From positions 124,001 through 188,000 of the forward strand of contig JAJZQX010000009.1 in NCBI GenBank assembly GCA_021806645.1: a stretch of DNA of 64,000 nucleotides, in the 5' to 3' direction. Source of the stretch: Myxococcales bacterium (GTDB taxonomy: Bacteria > Myxococcota > Myxococcia > Myxococcales > Anaeromyxobacteraceae). Position numbers and translations under genes: made by a program. The notes under the pieces are model-generated. The model worked only from the letters and a program-made list of their open reading frames with translations. It did no database searches and had not been told where the DNA came from. Positions 8,384 through 12,957 of this stretch are shown here, one piece after another. Positions within the stretch are counted from its first letter, which is position 1. Each line of letters begins with the position of its first letter.

Positions 8384-8758
8384 ATGACCCGGCCGCTCGT
8401 CATCTTCCTCTCCGGCAACGGCTGGCGGGAGCGCTACCAGGCGGTCATGCTCGGCGTCACCGCCGCGTCGCTGGGCGACGCGGTCACGGTGGTGCTGGCG
8501 TTCGAACCGCTGCGCGCCTTCATGAGCGGGCGCTTCGAGGAGGGGGCTCCCGCCACCGTCCACGAGGCGCGCGTCCCGCCGCTGGCGGTCACGCTGGAGG
8601 AGGCGCGGCGCGAGCTGGGCTTGCGGGTGGTGGCCTGCGAGACCTCGGTGCGCCTGGCCGGGCTCGACCCCGAGGTGGTCCGCGCGAAGCTCGACGGGCT
8701 GGAGCCGCTCCCGTCGCTCTGGCGGCTGGCGCAGCAGGGGCGGGCGCTGGCGTTTTGA
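8384..8758 (+). CDS. DsrE/DsrF-like family protein
   Basis: A 124-residue protein with the DsrE-like alpha/beta fold pattern: strand LVIFLSGNGWRERYQAVMLG, then AASLGDAVTVVLAFEPLRAF, and a C-terminal LRVVACETSVRLAGLDP. Members of this family relay persulfide sulfur (for example DsrE and TusD) or are poorly known. A cysteine (in VVACETS) sits where the active cysteine of many DsrE proteins lies. It heads the E1/TusA/Ubl/JAMM group, 52 bases before the E1 gene, which supports a sulfur-transfer role. Confidence 0.75.
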   Translation: MTRPLVIFLSGNGWRERYQAVMLGVTAASLGDAVTVVLAFEPLRAFMSGRFEEGAPATVHEARVPPLAVTLEEARRELGLRVVACETSVRLAGLDPEVVRAKLDGLEPLPSLWRLAQQGRALAF

Positions 8759-8810: not shown

Positions 8811-9554
8811 ATGGACCTCTCGAAGAAGAGCGCGCTGGTGATCGGCGCGGGTGGCCTCGGCGGCCCGGCCCTGTTGACCTTGGCCGCGGGCGGCGTCGGC
8901 CGGCTGGTGGTGATCGACGACGACGTGGTCGAGACCTCCAACCTCAACCGGCAGCCGCTCTTCGGCGAGGCCGACCTCGGCCAGCCCAAGGCCGTGCTGG
9001 CGGCGGCGAGGCTCCAGCAGCTCTTCCCGGCGGTCCAGGTGACGGCGCTGAACCGCCGCTTCGACGCCGGCGAGGCGGTCGAGCTGGTCTCGGGGGCCGA
9101 CGTGCTGCTCGACGGCTCGGACAACTTCCCCACCAAGTTCCTCGCCAGCGACGCCGCGCTCAAGGCCGGCAAGCCGCTGGTCCACGGCGGGGTGCTGCGC
9201 ACCTCGCTCCAGATCCTCACCGTGGCTCCCGGCTTCTCCGGCTGCGTCCGCTGCCTCTTCGAGGCGCCGCCGCCGGCCGGGCAGGTCCCGACCTGCGCCG
9301 AGGCCGGGATCGTTGGCGCCCTCTCCGGCTTCGCCGGCGGGCTGATGGGCGCCGAGGCCCTCCGGTTGCTGGCGGGCGAGCGGGGCAGCTACGCCGGGCG
9401 GCTCTTCGTCTTCGAGGCCCGCACCGGTCGCGGCCGGCTGGTGCTGGTGCGCCGCCGCCCCGGCTGTCCAGCCTGCGCCGGAACGCAGCCGCTCGAGCCG
9501 AGCGGGCCGGCCGGGCCGGTCGCCTGCGCGACGCCGGCGGGGGCGCAGCCGTGA
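8811..9554 (+). CDS. MoeB/ThiF-family E1-like adenylyltransferase
   Basis: A 247-residue E1-like enzyme that should adenylate the C-terminal glycine of a ubiquitin-fold sulfur carrier using ATP. All core motifs are visible: nucleotide loop GAGGLGGP, acidic VIDDDVVETSNLNRQ with the arginine finger, GQPKA lysine, LDGSDNF aspartate, two zinc CxxC pairs (GCVRC and GCPAC), and the conserved cysteine in PTCAEAGIVG. It lacks the rhodanese domain found in some MoeB proteins. It overlaps the TusA-like gene by GTGA, so sulfur delivery by TusA is a natural guess. Confidence 0.92.
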   Translation: MDLSKKSALVIGAGGLGGPALLTLAAGGVGRLVVIDDDVVETSNLNRQPLFGEADLGQPKAVLAAARLQQLFPAVQVTALNRRFDAGEAVELVSGADVLLDGSDNFPTKFLASDAALKAGKPLVHGGVLRTSLQILTVAPGFSGCVRCLFEAPPPAGQVPTCAEAGIVGALSGFAGGLMGAEALRLLAGERGSYAGRLFVFEARTGRGRLVLVRRRPGCPACAGTQPLEPSGPAGPVACATPAGAQP

Positions 9555-9823
9555 GCGGCCAGCCGGCTCCGGCGGCGCGCGTGGACGTGCGAGCCTTCAC
9601 CTGCCCGATCACCTGGGTGAAGACGCGGATCGCGCTGGAGCGGCTCCAGCTCGGCGACGTGCTGGAGGTGCTGCTGCGCGAGGGTGAGCCGCTCCAGAAC
9701 CTGCCCGGCAGCGCCGCGGAGGACGGTCACCGCGTGGTGTTCATGGAGCCGCTGCGCGAAGACCGGGCCGGTTCGTGGCGGATCCTGCTGGAGAAGGGGG
9801 CCGCGCCCCCGGCGCTGCCATGA
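9551..9823 (+). CDS. TusA-family sulfur carrier
   Basis: A 90-residue protein with the TusA/SirA two-layer fold. The hallmark cysteine occurs in DVRAFTCPITWVKTRIALE, where TusA proteins have CPxP; here the fourth position is Thr, not Pro. TusA-type cysteines carry persulfide between sulfurtransferases. GTG 9551 overlaps the E1 stop. Its own stop overlaps an ATG at 9820 in frame with the next gene, so the whole block appears translationally coupled. Confidence 0.85.
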   Translation: MSGQPAPAARVDVRAFTCPITWVKTRIALERLQLGDVLEVLLREGEPLQNLPGSAAEDGHRVVFMEPLREDRAGSWRILLEKGAAPPALP

Positions 9824-9846: not shown

Positions 9847-10815
9847 ATGACCGTGACCGTCTCCATCCCGGCGCCGCTGCGCGACCTGGCCGGCGGGAAG
9901 GCCGAGTTGGACGCCTCGGGTGCCACGGTCGGGGAGGTGCTCCGCCAGGTGGCGAGAGCCTATCCGCGCCTCGGCGAGCGGCTCCTCGACGACGCCGGGC
10001 AGGTGCGCCGCCACATCGGCGTCTTCCTGGGCGACGAGGAGGTGCGCGAAGTCGGTGGGCTGGGGGCCGCGCTGCGAGACGGCGACCGGCTCTGGCTGGT
10101 GCCGGCCATCGCCGGTGGCGCGCCCGAGCTCGACGCCGAGCGGATCGCCCGGTGGGCTCGCCACCTGCTGGTGCCCGGCTTCGGGGCGGCGGGGCAGGAA
10201 CGACTGATGGCCGCGCGGGTCCGGGCCGTCGGGGCCGACGGCATGGCCACGCCGGCGCTGGTGGCGCTGGCTCAGGCCGGCGTCGGGACCATCTGGATCG
10301 ACGATGCGGAGACCGTCGGCCCGGCCGACCTGGTCGGCTGGCTCTACCGGCCGCAGGAGGTCGGGCAGCCGAGGGCCACGGTGGCCGCGGCGGCCCTTTC
10401 GAGGCTCTCCCGCTTCACCTCCGTCCTCCCGTACCCGGTCGGAGGCGCGCCGTCGGCCGCGCTCATCTGCGCCTCGTCGCCGGCGCAGGGGCTGGCGGCG
10501 GCAGAGGTGGCGCGGCGAGCCGGGATCCCGCACGTGGTCCTGGAGCTGGACGGGGAGGCGGGACAGCTGGTCTCGGTCCCGCCGGGCGCTCCGTGCCTGG
10601 CCTGCGGACGCTTCACCGCGGCGGGCGGGCGTCCGCCGGTCCCGGGTGCGCTGGCGCTGGCCTCGCTGGCGGCGCAGGAGCTGCTCCGCTTGATGGTCGA
10701 GCCGGAGGTGAAGGAGGGCCGGCGCTTCGACGTGGTCCGCGGGGTCCCGAGCGTGCGCGTCACCCAGCGGCTCCCGGGCTGCGTCTGCGGCCGCGACGAG
10801 GCGAGTGAAGCCTGA
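9847..10815 (+). CDS. MoaD/ThiS ubiquitin-like domain fused to degenerate E1 domain
   Basis: A 322-residue fusion. Residues 1-91 are a MoaD/ThiS beta-grasp domain ending in LWLVPAIAGG, the Gly-Gly that free carriers use as C-terminus. Residues about 95-315 are homologous to MoeB/ThiF (ARWARHLLVPGFGAAGQERL). The nucleotide loop is altered (GADGMATP instead of GAGGLGSP), the NLNRQ arginine region is lost (DLVGWLY), the lysine is Arg (GQPRA), and the DxSD aspartate is replaced (ICASSP), so adenylation is unlikely. Cysteine pairs CLAC and CVC remain. ATG 9847 has GGAG at -12; ATG 9820, overlapping the upstream stop, is an alternative. The JAMM gene overlaps its 3' end by 11 bases. Confidence 0.85.
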   Translation: MTVTVSIPAPLRDLAGGKAELDASGATVGEVLRQVARAYPRLGERLLDDAGQVRRHIGVFLGDEEVREVGGLGAALRDGDRLWLVPAIAGGAPELDAERIARWARHLLVPGFGAAGQERLMAARVRAVGADGMATPALVALAQAGVGTIWIDDAETVGPADLVGWLYRPQEVGQPRATVAAAALSRLSRFTSVLPYPVGGAPSAALICASSPAQGLAAAEVARRAGIPHVVLELDGEAGQLVSVPPGAPCLACGRFTAAGGRPPVPGALALASLAAQELLRLMVEPEVKEGRRFDVVRGVPSVRVTQRLPGCVCGRDEASEA

Positions 10816-11233
10816 GCTGGGTGCGGGCGGCTGGCCGATCGCCCGGCTGGTGGCGCTGGCCGAGGCTTCGCCGGCCGAGGAGGTCTGCGGGTTGCTGGTG
10901 AGCGGCACCGGCGGCGAGGTCGAGCCGTGGCCGTTCACCAACGTCTCTGCGACGCCGGCCAGCGCGTTCGAGTTCGAGCCCCGGGAACTGCTCGGGGCCT
11001 TGCGGCGGCTCGACGAGGCGGGCGGCCGGCTGGTCGCCGTCTACCACTCCCACCTAGCCGGCGGGGCCGGCCTGTCGCCACGGGACGTGGCCGGCGCGCT
11101 GGTCGACGGCGCCCCGGTCCTGCCCGGTGCCGCGCAGGTGGTGGTGGCCCTGGAGGGTGGCCGGGCGAGGCGCATCCGGGCCCATCGCTGGACCGGCCAG
11201 GGCTTCGAGCCGTCCGACCTCTGGTGGCGCTGA
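10805..11233 (+). CDS. JAMM/MPN+ metallopeptidase (JAB domain)
   Basis: A 142-residue zinc isopeptidase-type enzyme. The JAMM signature is complete: Glu in PAEEVCGLLV (residue 25/26), His81 and His83 in YHSHLAGG, and Asp94 ten residues later (GLSPRD). Bacterial relatives (for example Mec+ with CysO) remove groups from, or mature, the Gly-Gly end of ubiquitin-like sulfur carriers. GTG 10805 overlaps the fusion gene, so the likely substrate is that fusion or a protein modified by it. Confidence 0.9.
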   Translation: MKPELGAGGWPIARLVALAEASPAEEVCGLLVSGTGGEVEPWPFTNVSATPASAFEFEPRELLGALRRLDEAGGRLVAVYHSHLAGGAGLSPRDVAGALVDGAPVLPGAAQVVVALEGGRARRIRAHRWTGQGFEPSDLWWR

Positions 11234-11369: not shown

Positions 11370-12053
11370 ATGAACTTTCAGCAGAGCACCGGGTTCGTCA
11401 TCTGGCTGACCGGAATGAAGAAGGCCGGGAAGACCACCCTCGCCACGCAGCTGGCGCAGCGGCTGACGCAGGCGGGGCGGGTGGTCCAGCTGCTCGACGA
11501 GGACGGCGAGGCGAAGTTCCTCCTCGAGGGGCTCGGGCCCTCCAAGGACGGCCAGGTCACGGCGGTGAAGCGGTTCGGATACACGGCCAAGGCGGTGGCC
11601 AGGTCGGGCGGGATCGCCGTCTGCGCGGCACTCTCCCCGTTCCGCGAGCCGCGCGAGCAGCTGCGGCGCGAGGCGCGCCGCTTCGTCGAGGTCTTCGTCG
11701 ACTGCACCATCGAGAAGCTGATGGATCGGGACGGCAAGGAGGCCTACTACAAGAAGGCGATGACCGGCGAGATCACGCAGGTGGCGGGTGTTGACCTTCC
11801 GTACGAGCCGCCGGTTCACCCCGAGCTGGTGCTCCACACCGAGCAGGAGCCGGTCGAGGCCTGCCTCACCCGCATCTTCCAGGCCCTGGTAGACGGCAAG
11901 TTCATCGGCCCGACCGAGTTCGGGCGGCTCACCGGCGGCCTCAAGCCGAAGCGGAAGTCGGGCAAGCCGGCCAGGGCGGGCCAGGGGGCCAAGCCACCGA
12001 AGGCGGCCAAGGCGAAGAAGGCGGCGGGCAAGGCGGGCAAGAAGAAGCGCTGA
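11370..12053 (+). CDS. APS-kinase-like (CysC family) protein with basic tail
   Basis: A 227-residue P-loop kinase. The Walker A motif is GMKKAGKTT (residues 15-23). SPFREPRE, VFVDCTIE, YYKKAMTGEI and VDLPYEPPVHPEL follow the order seen in adenylylsulfate kinases (APS + ATP to PAPS). Two usual substrate-site elements differ: the LDGDxxR strand is LDEDGEAKFLL, and the RxxNxxR segment is not evident. The last 35 residues are a Lys/Ala-rich tail. It may be a true CysC or a diverged kinase for another adenylated or sulfated substrate. It sits between the JAMM operon and larE. Confidence 0.75.
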   Translation: MNFQQSTGFVIWLTGMKKAGKTTLATQLAQRLTQAGRVVQLLDEDGEAKFLLEGLGPSKDGQVTAVKRFGYTAKAVARSGGIAVCAALSPFREPREQLRREARRFVEVFVDCTIEKLMDRDGKEAYYKKAMTGEITQVAGVDLPYEPPVHPELVLHTEQEPVEACLTRIFQALVDGKFIGPTEFGRLTGGLKPKRKSGKPARAGQGAKPPKAAKAKKAAGKAGKKKR

Positions 12054-12105
12054 CGCCCCGACCGCGATCCCGTTACCCGAAGTGCCGGGCGGTACGTTTC
12101 GAATC

Positions 12106-12957
12106 ATGCGCGCCGAAGTGGAACCGCTGCGACAGGCTTCACGCCCCGCGCTGGAGGGGCTGCGGCGCCAGCTGGCCGGCTACGGCCGCGTGCTGGTCGC
12201 CTTCTCCGGCGGTGTCGATTCGACCTTCCTGCTGGCGGTCGCCCGGGAGGTGCTCGGCGACGGGGCGCTGGCACTCACGACCCACTCGCCCAGTGTCCCC
12301 GAGTCGGAGCGGGCCGAGGCGCGTGCGCTGGCGGCCCGGCTGGGCGCCCGGCACGTCGAGGTGGTGAGCCGCGAGGGGGACGACCCTGCCTACACCGCCA
12401 ACACCGACCAGCGCTGCTACTTCTGCAAGCGGGAACTCTACCGGCTCTGCCTCGAGGTGGCGACGACGGAGGGGATTCCGGCCATCGCCGACGGCTACAA
12501 CGCCGACGATCGGCGCGACCATCGGCCGGGCCGTCGCGCGGCCGAGGAGGCGGGGGTCTTCTCCCCGCTGGCGGAGGCCGGGATGGGAAAGCCGGCCATC
12601 AGGGCCTGGAGCGAGGCGTTCGGCTTGCCGACCTGGGACAAGCCCCAGCTGGCCTGCCTCGCCTCGAGGATCCCTTACGGCACGGCGGTGACCCCGGAGC
12701 GGCTGGCGCAGGTGGAGCGCGCCGAGGCGGCGGTTCGGGCGCTCGGGCTGCGGAGCTTCCGGGTGCGTCACCACGGCGAGGTGGGGCGGCTGGAGGTGGC
12801 CGAGGAGGAGCTGGCCGGCGCCTTCGCGCGCCGCGAGGTGCTGGGGGCGGCGGTGAGGCAGGCAGGCTTCCGGAGCGCCGCGCTCGACCTCGAGCCGTTC
12901 CGCTCGGGGCGGATGAACGAGCTGGCGGGCATCCCGTTGCCGGTGGTGGCGTCGTGA
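12106..12957 (+). CDS. larE: ATP-dependent sacrificial sulfur transferase LarE
   Basis: PP-loop pyrophosphatase-type enzyme that, in lactate racemase cofactor synthesis, donates sulfur to the pyridinium biscarboxylate precursor of the nickel-pincer nucleotide. The PP-loop AFSGGVDSTFLLA is near the N-terminus; NTDQRCYFCKRELY, DGYNADDRRDHRPG and KPQLACLASRIPYG are typical. The cysteine in ACLASR matches the sulfur-donating position of the L. plantarum enzyme. The CYFC pair adds two more cysteines, as in cluster-type LarE. No larA/B/C is nearby, so this copy may serve another sulfur pathway. ATG 12106 is preferred; GTG 12082 is possible. Confidence 0.88.
   Translation: MRAEVEPLRQASRPALEGLRRQLAGYGRVLVAFSGGVDSTFLLAVAREVLGDGALALTTHSPSVPESERAEARALAARLGARHVEVVSREGDDPAYTANTDQRCYFCKRELYRLCLEVATTEGIPAIADGYNADDRRDHRPGRRAAEEAGVFSPLAEAGMGKPAIRAWSEAFGLPTWDKPQLACLASRIPYGTAVTPERLAQVERAEAAVRALGLRSFRVRHHGEVGRLEVAEEELAGAFARREVLGAAVRQAGFRSAALDLEPFRSGRMNELAGIPLPVVAS

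Follow-up and report, generated by a model that had tools for sequence, protein, structure and literature searches.

The genes at 8811-9554 and 9847-10815 of the window (the whole 64,000-nucleotide stretch of DNA that was analysed) are best read as encoding a split, asymmetric heterodimeric E1. The catalytic E1 subunit (aE1) carries the ATP site and the pseudo-E1 (pE1) carries the arginine-finger helix, and together they make up one complete active site between two proteins. This split E1 is the central and more interesting feature of the region and is widespread in the order, whereas the fusion of a ubiquitin-like (Ubl) domain to pE1 is a recent change found in one genus. The sequence-only reading had singled out the fusion as an unusual design; it is real and occurs in three genomes, but it takes second place to the split. 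Relatives were identified in 195 Myxococcota genomes, and the comparison set consisted of 26 loci from the family of the window and 28 from four further families (the outgroup), which together represent 51 genomes and five families. The features of the region are listed in Table 1.

Table 1. Features of the split-E1 region (positions in the window)
Feature	Position	Strand	Remarks
DsrE-like small protein, probable sulfur-relay protein	8384..8758	+	weak Pfam DrsE_2 match
Catalytic E1 subunit (aE1)	8811..9554	+	247 aa; all ATP-site residues, without N-terminal arginine-finger helix
TusA-like sulfurtransferase, CPxx cysteine	9551..9823	+	Pfam TusA 2.3e-14
Ubl::pseudo-E1 fusion protein	9847..10815	+	322 aa, open ORF
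CysO/SAMP1-like beta-grasp sulfur carrier domain	9847..10119	+	residues 1-91; Pfam ThiS, PDB 3dwg, beta-grasp model
Internal Gly90-Gly91, presumed cleavage point ahead of Ala92	10114..10119	+	within flexible segment 89-95
Pseudo-E1 (pE1) domain	10120..10815	+	residues 92-322, 231 aa; arginine-finger helix, decayed ATP site, zinc cysteines kept
R105 codon, equivalent of MoeB Arg14 (arginine finger)	10159..10161	+	E. coli MoeB alignment
JAB/JAMM metallopeptidase (desampylase/Mec-like)	10805..11233	+	Pfam Prok-JAB 2.8e-11; overlaps end of fusion ORF
APS kinase	11370..12053	+	Pfam 2.7e-38; conserved in relatives
LarE-like ATP-dependent sulfur transferase	12082..12957	+	TIGR00268 4.2e-91; conserved in relatives

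The active subunit lacks an arginine finger

When aE1 was compared with the ThiF family in Pfam, a match of 7.8e-62 was obtained that opened at profile position 17, and in the alignment with MoeB the protein, whose sequence opens with MDLSKKSALVIGAGGLGG, was found to start 6 aa ahead of the first strand. The finger helix is missing ahead of the first strand in every active partner examined (54 of 54; 26 family and 28 outgroup loci). A wrong start codon for aE1 was rejected because no in-frame RYxRQ motif was found upstream, either in the open frame ahead of aE1 in the window or in the relatives. Among the aligned active copies, G41, G43 and G46 were present in 34/34, R73 in 32/34, and K86 and D130 in 31/34 each. 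The protein described earlier as a complete E1 is therefore complete in its ATP site but not in its N-terminus, and it does not have the finger helix of its own that a self-sufficient homodimer possesses.

The active copies that deviate in the alignment belong to the paralogous pairs L034, L036 and L072, which lie outside the operon and without any other operon gene. These are second, stand-alone aE1-pE1 pairs of genomes G033, G048 and G042, respectively, and their 'active' partner has also lost at least one catalytic residue, for example by change of NLNRQ to DLAAQ or of Lys86.

The pseudo-E1 keeps the finger helix that the active subunit lacks

In MoeB, the helix RYNRQ bears Arg14, which reaches into the ATP site of the partner subunit, and the subunits of MoeB and ThiF swap their arginine-finger helices within the homodimer. 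When pE1 was aligned with E. coli MoeB, the equivalents of GxGGLG, R73, K86 and D130 were all gone, and among the aligned pseudo-E1s R73, K86 and D130 were present in 0/34, 1/34 and 0/34, respectively. In contrast, the N-terminal helix ERIARWARHL is retained and corresponds to the finger-bearing RYxRQ helix of MoeB, with R105 at the position of R14. Arg14 of MoeB and Arg11 of ThiF have both been named as arginine fingers (PMC13139853). This arginine was found in 55/55 pseudo-E1s, namely 34/34 aligned copies and those of all 28 outgroup loci, with 7 copies in both sets. The sequence-only reading had reported the ATP loop, arginine, lysine and aspartate as changed, and this agrees with the alignment for the loop, R73, K86 and D130, but the Arg14 finger is kept. 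Judged by its sequence, pE1 is not simply dead, as had been proposed, since it retains the arginine-finger helix.

Decay of pE1 into a protein without function would fit with the loss of every ATP-site residue tested, with its evolution being faster than that of aE1 and with its very short length in some lineages. This is, however, highly improbable, given that pE1 accompanies an aE1 without finger helix in each of the 51 genomes, that the finger arginine is invariant (as are the zinc cysteines within the window's family) and that dN is lower than dS in the fused genomes. Some outgroup pE1s of only 107-125 residues still begin with the finger helix. These shrunken copies occur at L039, L042, L044, L051 and L103, and several of them retain a C-terminal helix-like segment.

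Evidence for a probable aE1-pE1 heterodimer

In the phylogenetic tree, the active subunits formed one clade (98/93) and the pseudo subunits another (100/99), both apart from canonical MoeB. By sequence, separate active and inactive adenylation subunits of the NAE/SAE kind are present and, in the loci compared, the aE1-pE1 pair is co-inherited, also where no further operon gene accompanies it (L034, L036 and L072).

A tandem model was built from L055, in which aE1, Ubl and pE1 are in one frame except for one TGA. The TGA was read as tryptophan, as a modelling device only, to give a 556-residue read-through chain, and the alignment rows comprised same-frame read-through and single active-subunit rows only. 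AlphaFold gave a pTM of 0.78 for this chain, with residues 229-340 scoring mostly below 50 and the Ubl part poorly modelled. By our own estimate, pTM would reach approximately 0.4 at most if one half were placed and approximately 0.8 if both were. The value of 0.78, obtained despite a largely disordered segment 229-340, thus indicates that the two halves were placed relative to each other. Compared to two-domain E1s, the tandem model aligned over more than 600 columns with a TMq of up to 0.55 (single ThiF chains reached 0.37), though with a large r.m.s.d., and this alignment is supportive only.

These findings indicate that aE1 and pE1 very probably form a heterodimer. In such a complex, aE1 would bind ATP and adenylate the C-terminal glycine of the carrier, and pE1 would pair with aE1 and lend the arginine finger in trans, a role played by NAE1 towards UBA3 and by Tcd1 towards Tcd2. 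A less probable reading, but one that deserves weight, is that pE1 pairs with aE1 as a structural chaperone only, the arginine being unneeded and aE1 active alone. The solubility of Tcd2 requires Tcd1, and in MoeB, ThiF and Tcd1 the finger arginine has been reported not to be essential (PMC13139853); finger transfer therefore need not matter for catalysis, and the pseudo-subunit may be chiefly stabilising. Against a purely structural role, the finger arginine has remained invariant while the catalytic residues drifted freely, and even the smallest pseudo-E1s retain the finger helix.

A CysO-like carrier is fused to the pseudo-E1

Residues 1-91 of the fusion protein matched the ThiS/MoaD family (Pfam ThiS, E=4.6e-10) and M. 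tuberculosis CysO (PDB 3dwg, 1.5e-17), the latter in an alignment that reached the C-terminal GG of CysO. The Ubl part ends in PAIAGG and the frame runs on into a MoeB/ThiF-like domain, with a Pfam ThiF match (6.4e-15) at residues 104-196. The AlphaFold model of the fusion had a mean pLDDT of 88.6. A confident beta-grasp was predicted at residues 1-88 and a ThiF/MoeB-like fold from residue 97, mostly with pLDDT above 90, while the Gly-Gly linker at 89-95 was flexible (pLDDT below 50). When this model was used in Foldseek, ThiF and MoeB were matched with TM-scores of 0.77-0.78 (target length), and human SAE1 was also matched at a lower rank. The Pfam match, the CysO match and the predicted fold all agree that the fusion has the beta-grasp typical of ThiS/MoaD/CysO carriers, and they confirm the earlier proposal of a MoaD/ThiS-like domain ahead of an E1-like domain with an internal Gly-Gly.

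The same in-frame fusion was found in two more genomes from this genus (L033/L054 and L055), with 77-78% and 64-65% identity, respectively, and the sequence PAIAGGAPELD is identical across the three fused proteins. Of the four genomes in this genus, three have lost the stop codon that separates Ubl from pE1, and the remaining one (G052, incomplete) encodes pE1 unfused. At each of the 28 outgroup loci, the carrier is encoded as a free protein and ends in AGG, sometimes followed by one or two more residues, with the pE1 ORF close behind. From this comparison of reading frames, the fusion is a lost stop codon. One scan of a genome collection gave the sister genome as the sole match.

When the window was compared with L033, differences amounted to 35% at third codon positions, 17% at first and 12% at second positions, and dN/dS was approximately 0.41 in the Ubl part and 0.24 in the E1 part. 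In comparisons with L055, the constraint on the Ubl looks weaker. As far as substitution patterns tell, the fused frame is under constraint. A sequencing or assembly artefact was rejected, as the fusion is common to three genomes and substitutions are concentrated at third codon positions. Nor is the degenerate pE1 a sequencing variant of an intact E1, a possibility that the sequence-only reading had left for checking, because close homologues share its degenerate residues.

The fused Ubl showed 49-53% identity (43% in one case) to the outgroup operon carriers, compared to 37-43% to carriers that adjoin canonical MoeB. In most genera of the family (g2-g6), the split E1 is kept without an adjoining carrier; in genus g2, a CysO-like Ubl and a JAB adjoin canonical MoeB instead. 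No CysO-like carrier was found in genomes G040, G041, G045, G046 and G048.

The surrounding operon

The DsrE-like gene holds its position upstream of aE1 in the relatives, and the cysteine of its ACxTxxRLxG motif was invariant in 20/20 family copies. The CPxx motif of TusA was present in 41/41 copies of the relatives. The JAB protein matched the NCBIfam desampylase model (2.2e-14, under that model's cut-off) and contains E..CG and HSH-x7-SxxD, so that the catalytic Glu, HxH, Ser and Asp are intact. JAB and the fusion are not strictly coupled: the g3 and g5 loci contain a JAB but no Ubl, and the contig of L055 stops before any JAB. The APS kinase and LarE genes (11370-12957) consistently accompany the split E1 from family to family, which suggests a link with sulfur assimilation.

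The outgroup operon is mostly arranged as aE1, (TusA), Ubl, pE1, (cysteine synthase), JAB, APS kinase and LarE, with the cysteine synthase (CysM) present at 11 of 28 loci. Cysteine synthase is absent from the operon in the window; several PALP genes occur elsewhere in the genome. The genome of the window also encodes a canonical MoeB-rhodanese close to a cysteine synthase (L081, G000:C25:12500-20500). Neither a carrier nor a JAB was found next to this MoeB-rhodanese, in contrast to the arrangement in the sister genus g2. A second CysO-like Ubl (L082, G000:C1:92785-93036; 40% identity) was found in this genome with no E1 adjoining it among the genes searched for, and there were two further ThiS-family matches.

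Probable release of the carrier from the fusion

A Gly-Gly followed by a peptide bond cannot be adenylated. The carrier is translated fused to pE1 and its Gly-Gly is consequently blocked; the two glycines are present but internal, with no free carboxylate unless the chain is cut. It had been proposed that the Gly-Gly could be exposed by proteolysis or act in place. Proteolysis is probable, based on the flexible Gly-Gly linker, on outgroup carriers that stop there, on unfused pE1 homologues that start just after the corresponding point, on the intact JAMM that adjoins and on the precedents of DRJAMM, HvJAMM1 and MoaX, and the in-place alternative is disfavoured. The adjoining JAMM is the favoured protease, with somewhat less assurance than the cut itself, as DRJAMM and HvJAMM1 act in this way on other carrier fusions. 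HvJAMM1 cuts a linear SAMP1-MoaE fusion after the last Gly (PMC4443979), DRJAMM cuts DRMoaD-MoaE after the last Gly (PMC8832034), and a cut after Gly82 is required for mycobacterial MoaX, for which the study in question did not identify the protease (PMC4326299).

If the fusion acted uncut, the tethered Ubl would serve in docking or regulation, and another protein, such as a free Ubl encoded elsewhere, would be the carrier that is thiocarboxylated. Ubl-ThiF fusions together with a separate free ThiS have been described in Campylobacter and relatives (PMC1779556), and the second Ubl on contig C1 and the two further ThiS-family matches could supply such a carrier. This is nevertheless unlikely, as the PAIAGG tail is kept in all three fused proteins, the fused Ubl is nearer to the free outgroup operon carriers than to carriers beside canonical MoeB, and a JAMM adjoins. 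Far less likely still is an internal translation start that would give fused and free pE1 with no proteolysis: all three fused genes have GTG as the in-frame Val codon right ahead of PAIAGG, but it lacks a preceding ribosome-binding-like sequence, Val is often encoded by GTG at such G+C content, and initiation at this codon would leave the Ubl unfreed.

With proteolysis as the preferred reading, the adjoining JAMM would cut after Gly91 and yield an activatable carrier and a mature pE1 in equal amounts. Translation would be followed by this cut, by assembly of aE1 with the freed pE1, by adenylation of the carrier and by sulfur transfer. The TusA and DsrE-like proteins would provide the sulfur for a thiocarboxylate, used for cysteine or another sulfur product. 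A sulfur-carrier role is probable, while cysteine as the product is a tentative assignment.

Taken at the level of genes and alignments, the complementary loss and retention in the two subunits, their conservation, the operon and the origin of the fusion are demonstrated. The explanation as a whole, in which a split E1 activates a sulfur carrier that is cut from its fusion by JAMM, is one we consider likely.

Discussion

The Ubl fusion is in itself only modestly new, since precedents exist for carrier fusions with a cut at Gly-Gly. Homodimers with two equivalent active sites are the described form of MoeB, ThiF and non-canonical E1s, and a recent review likewise gives MoeB and ThiF as homodimers (PMC12355090). 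No description of a two-gene bacterial heterodimeric E1 was found in the parts of the open-access literature available to us. Plasmid records gave partial matches only and, among the matches listed, most were annotated as MoeB/ThiF-family proteins. The balance is even on the broader proposal that an obligate asymmetric E1 made from two genes, with a finger-lending pseudo-subunit and, in one genus, a JAMM-matured carrier-E1 precursor, arose in bacteria independently of eukaryotes. If true, this precursor would be a bacterial counterpart of the ubiquitin-ribosomal-protein fusions and a natural test case for JAMM maturation. Living relatives with full-size, reduced and approximately 110-residue pseudo-subunits would represent intermediate stages, which permit direct experiments on why E1s turn asymmetric and on what the arginine finger does.

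Comparison with known systems

The likeness to NAE1-UBA3 and SAE1-SAE2 lies in two polypeptides with one active and one inactive adenylation domain, and SAE1 was among both the fold and the sequence matches of the pseudo-E1. The finger is missing from UBA3 and SAE2 and is provided by NAE1 and SAE1. In contrast to these enzymes, the myxobacterial pair has no catalytic-cysteine half-domain or ubiquitin-fold domain (the 247 + 231 aa match the ThiF family only), and its genes sit in a sulfur-carrier operon. As aE1 branches next to canonical MoeB of Myxococcota, an independent parallel to the eukaryotic E1s is likely. The nearest mechanistic parallel is yeast Tcd1-Tcd2, in which one subunit without the catalytic arginine provides an arginine finger to the other (PMC13139853); this system is, however, eukaryotic and its substrate is tRNA t6A and not a ubiquitin-like protein.

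In bacteria, the E1 BilD has an inactive and an active adenylation domain, with BilC, its JAB peptidase partner, trimming the precursor of the Ubl (PMC11354881). BilD differs in that both domains are in one chain with a Cys domain, its partner is an E2 and the system is one of ubiquitination-like conjugation. MoaX and DRMoaD-MoaE resemble the fusion in that a carrier is joined through Gly-Gly to a partner and activated by a cut after the last Gly, made by a JAMM in Deinococcus, but the partner is MoaE, an acceptor enzyme and not an E1 subunit.

CysO-CysM-Mec and the operons of Iyer et al. 2006 share with the window the CysO-like carrier, E1, JAB, TusA/SirA and APS kinase, and the outgroup operons resemble CysO-CysM-Mec further through the added cysteine synthase. 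The known cases of this type have a single E1-like protein, often fused to rhodanese, and a split E1 was not found described for them in the accessible parts of the open-access literature. Finally, in the Campylobacter-type fusions a Ubl is likewise N-terminal to a ThiF domain, but that Ubl belongs to a family distinct from ThiS and occurs beside a standalone ThiS (PMC1779556), whereas the fusion in the window places a CysO-type Ubl with an intact GG on a pseudo-E1.
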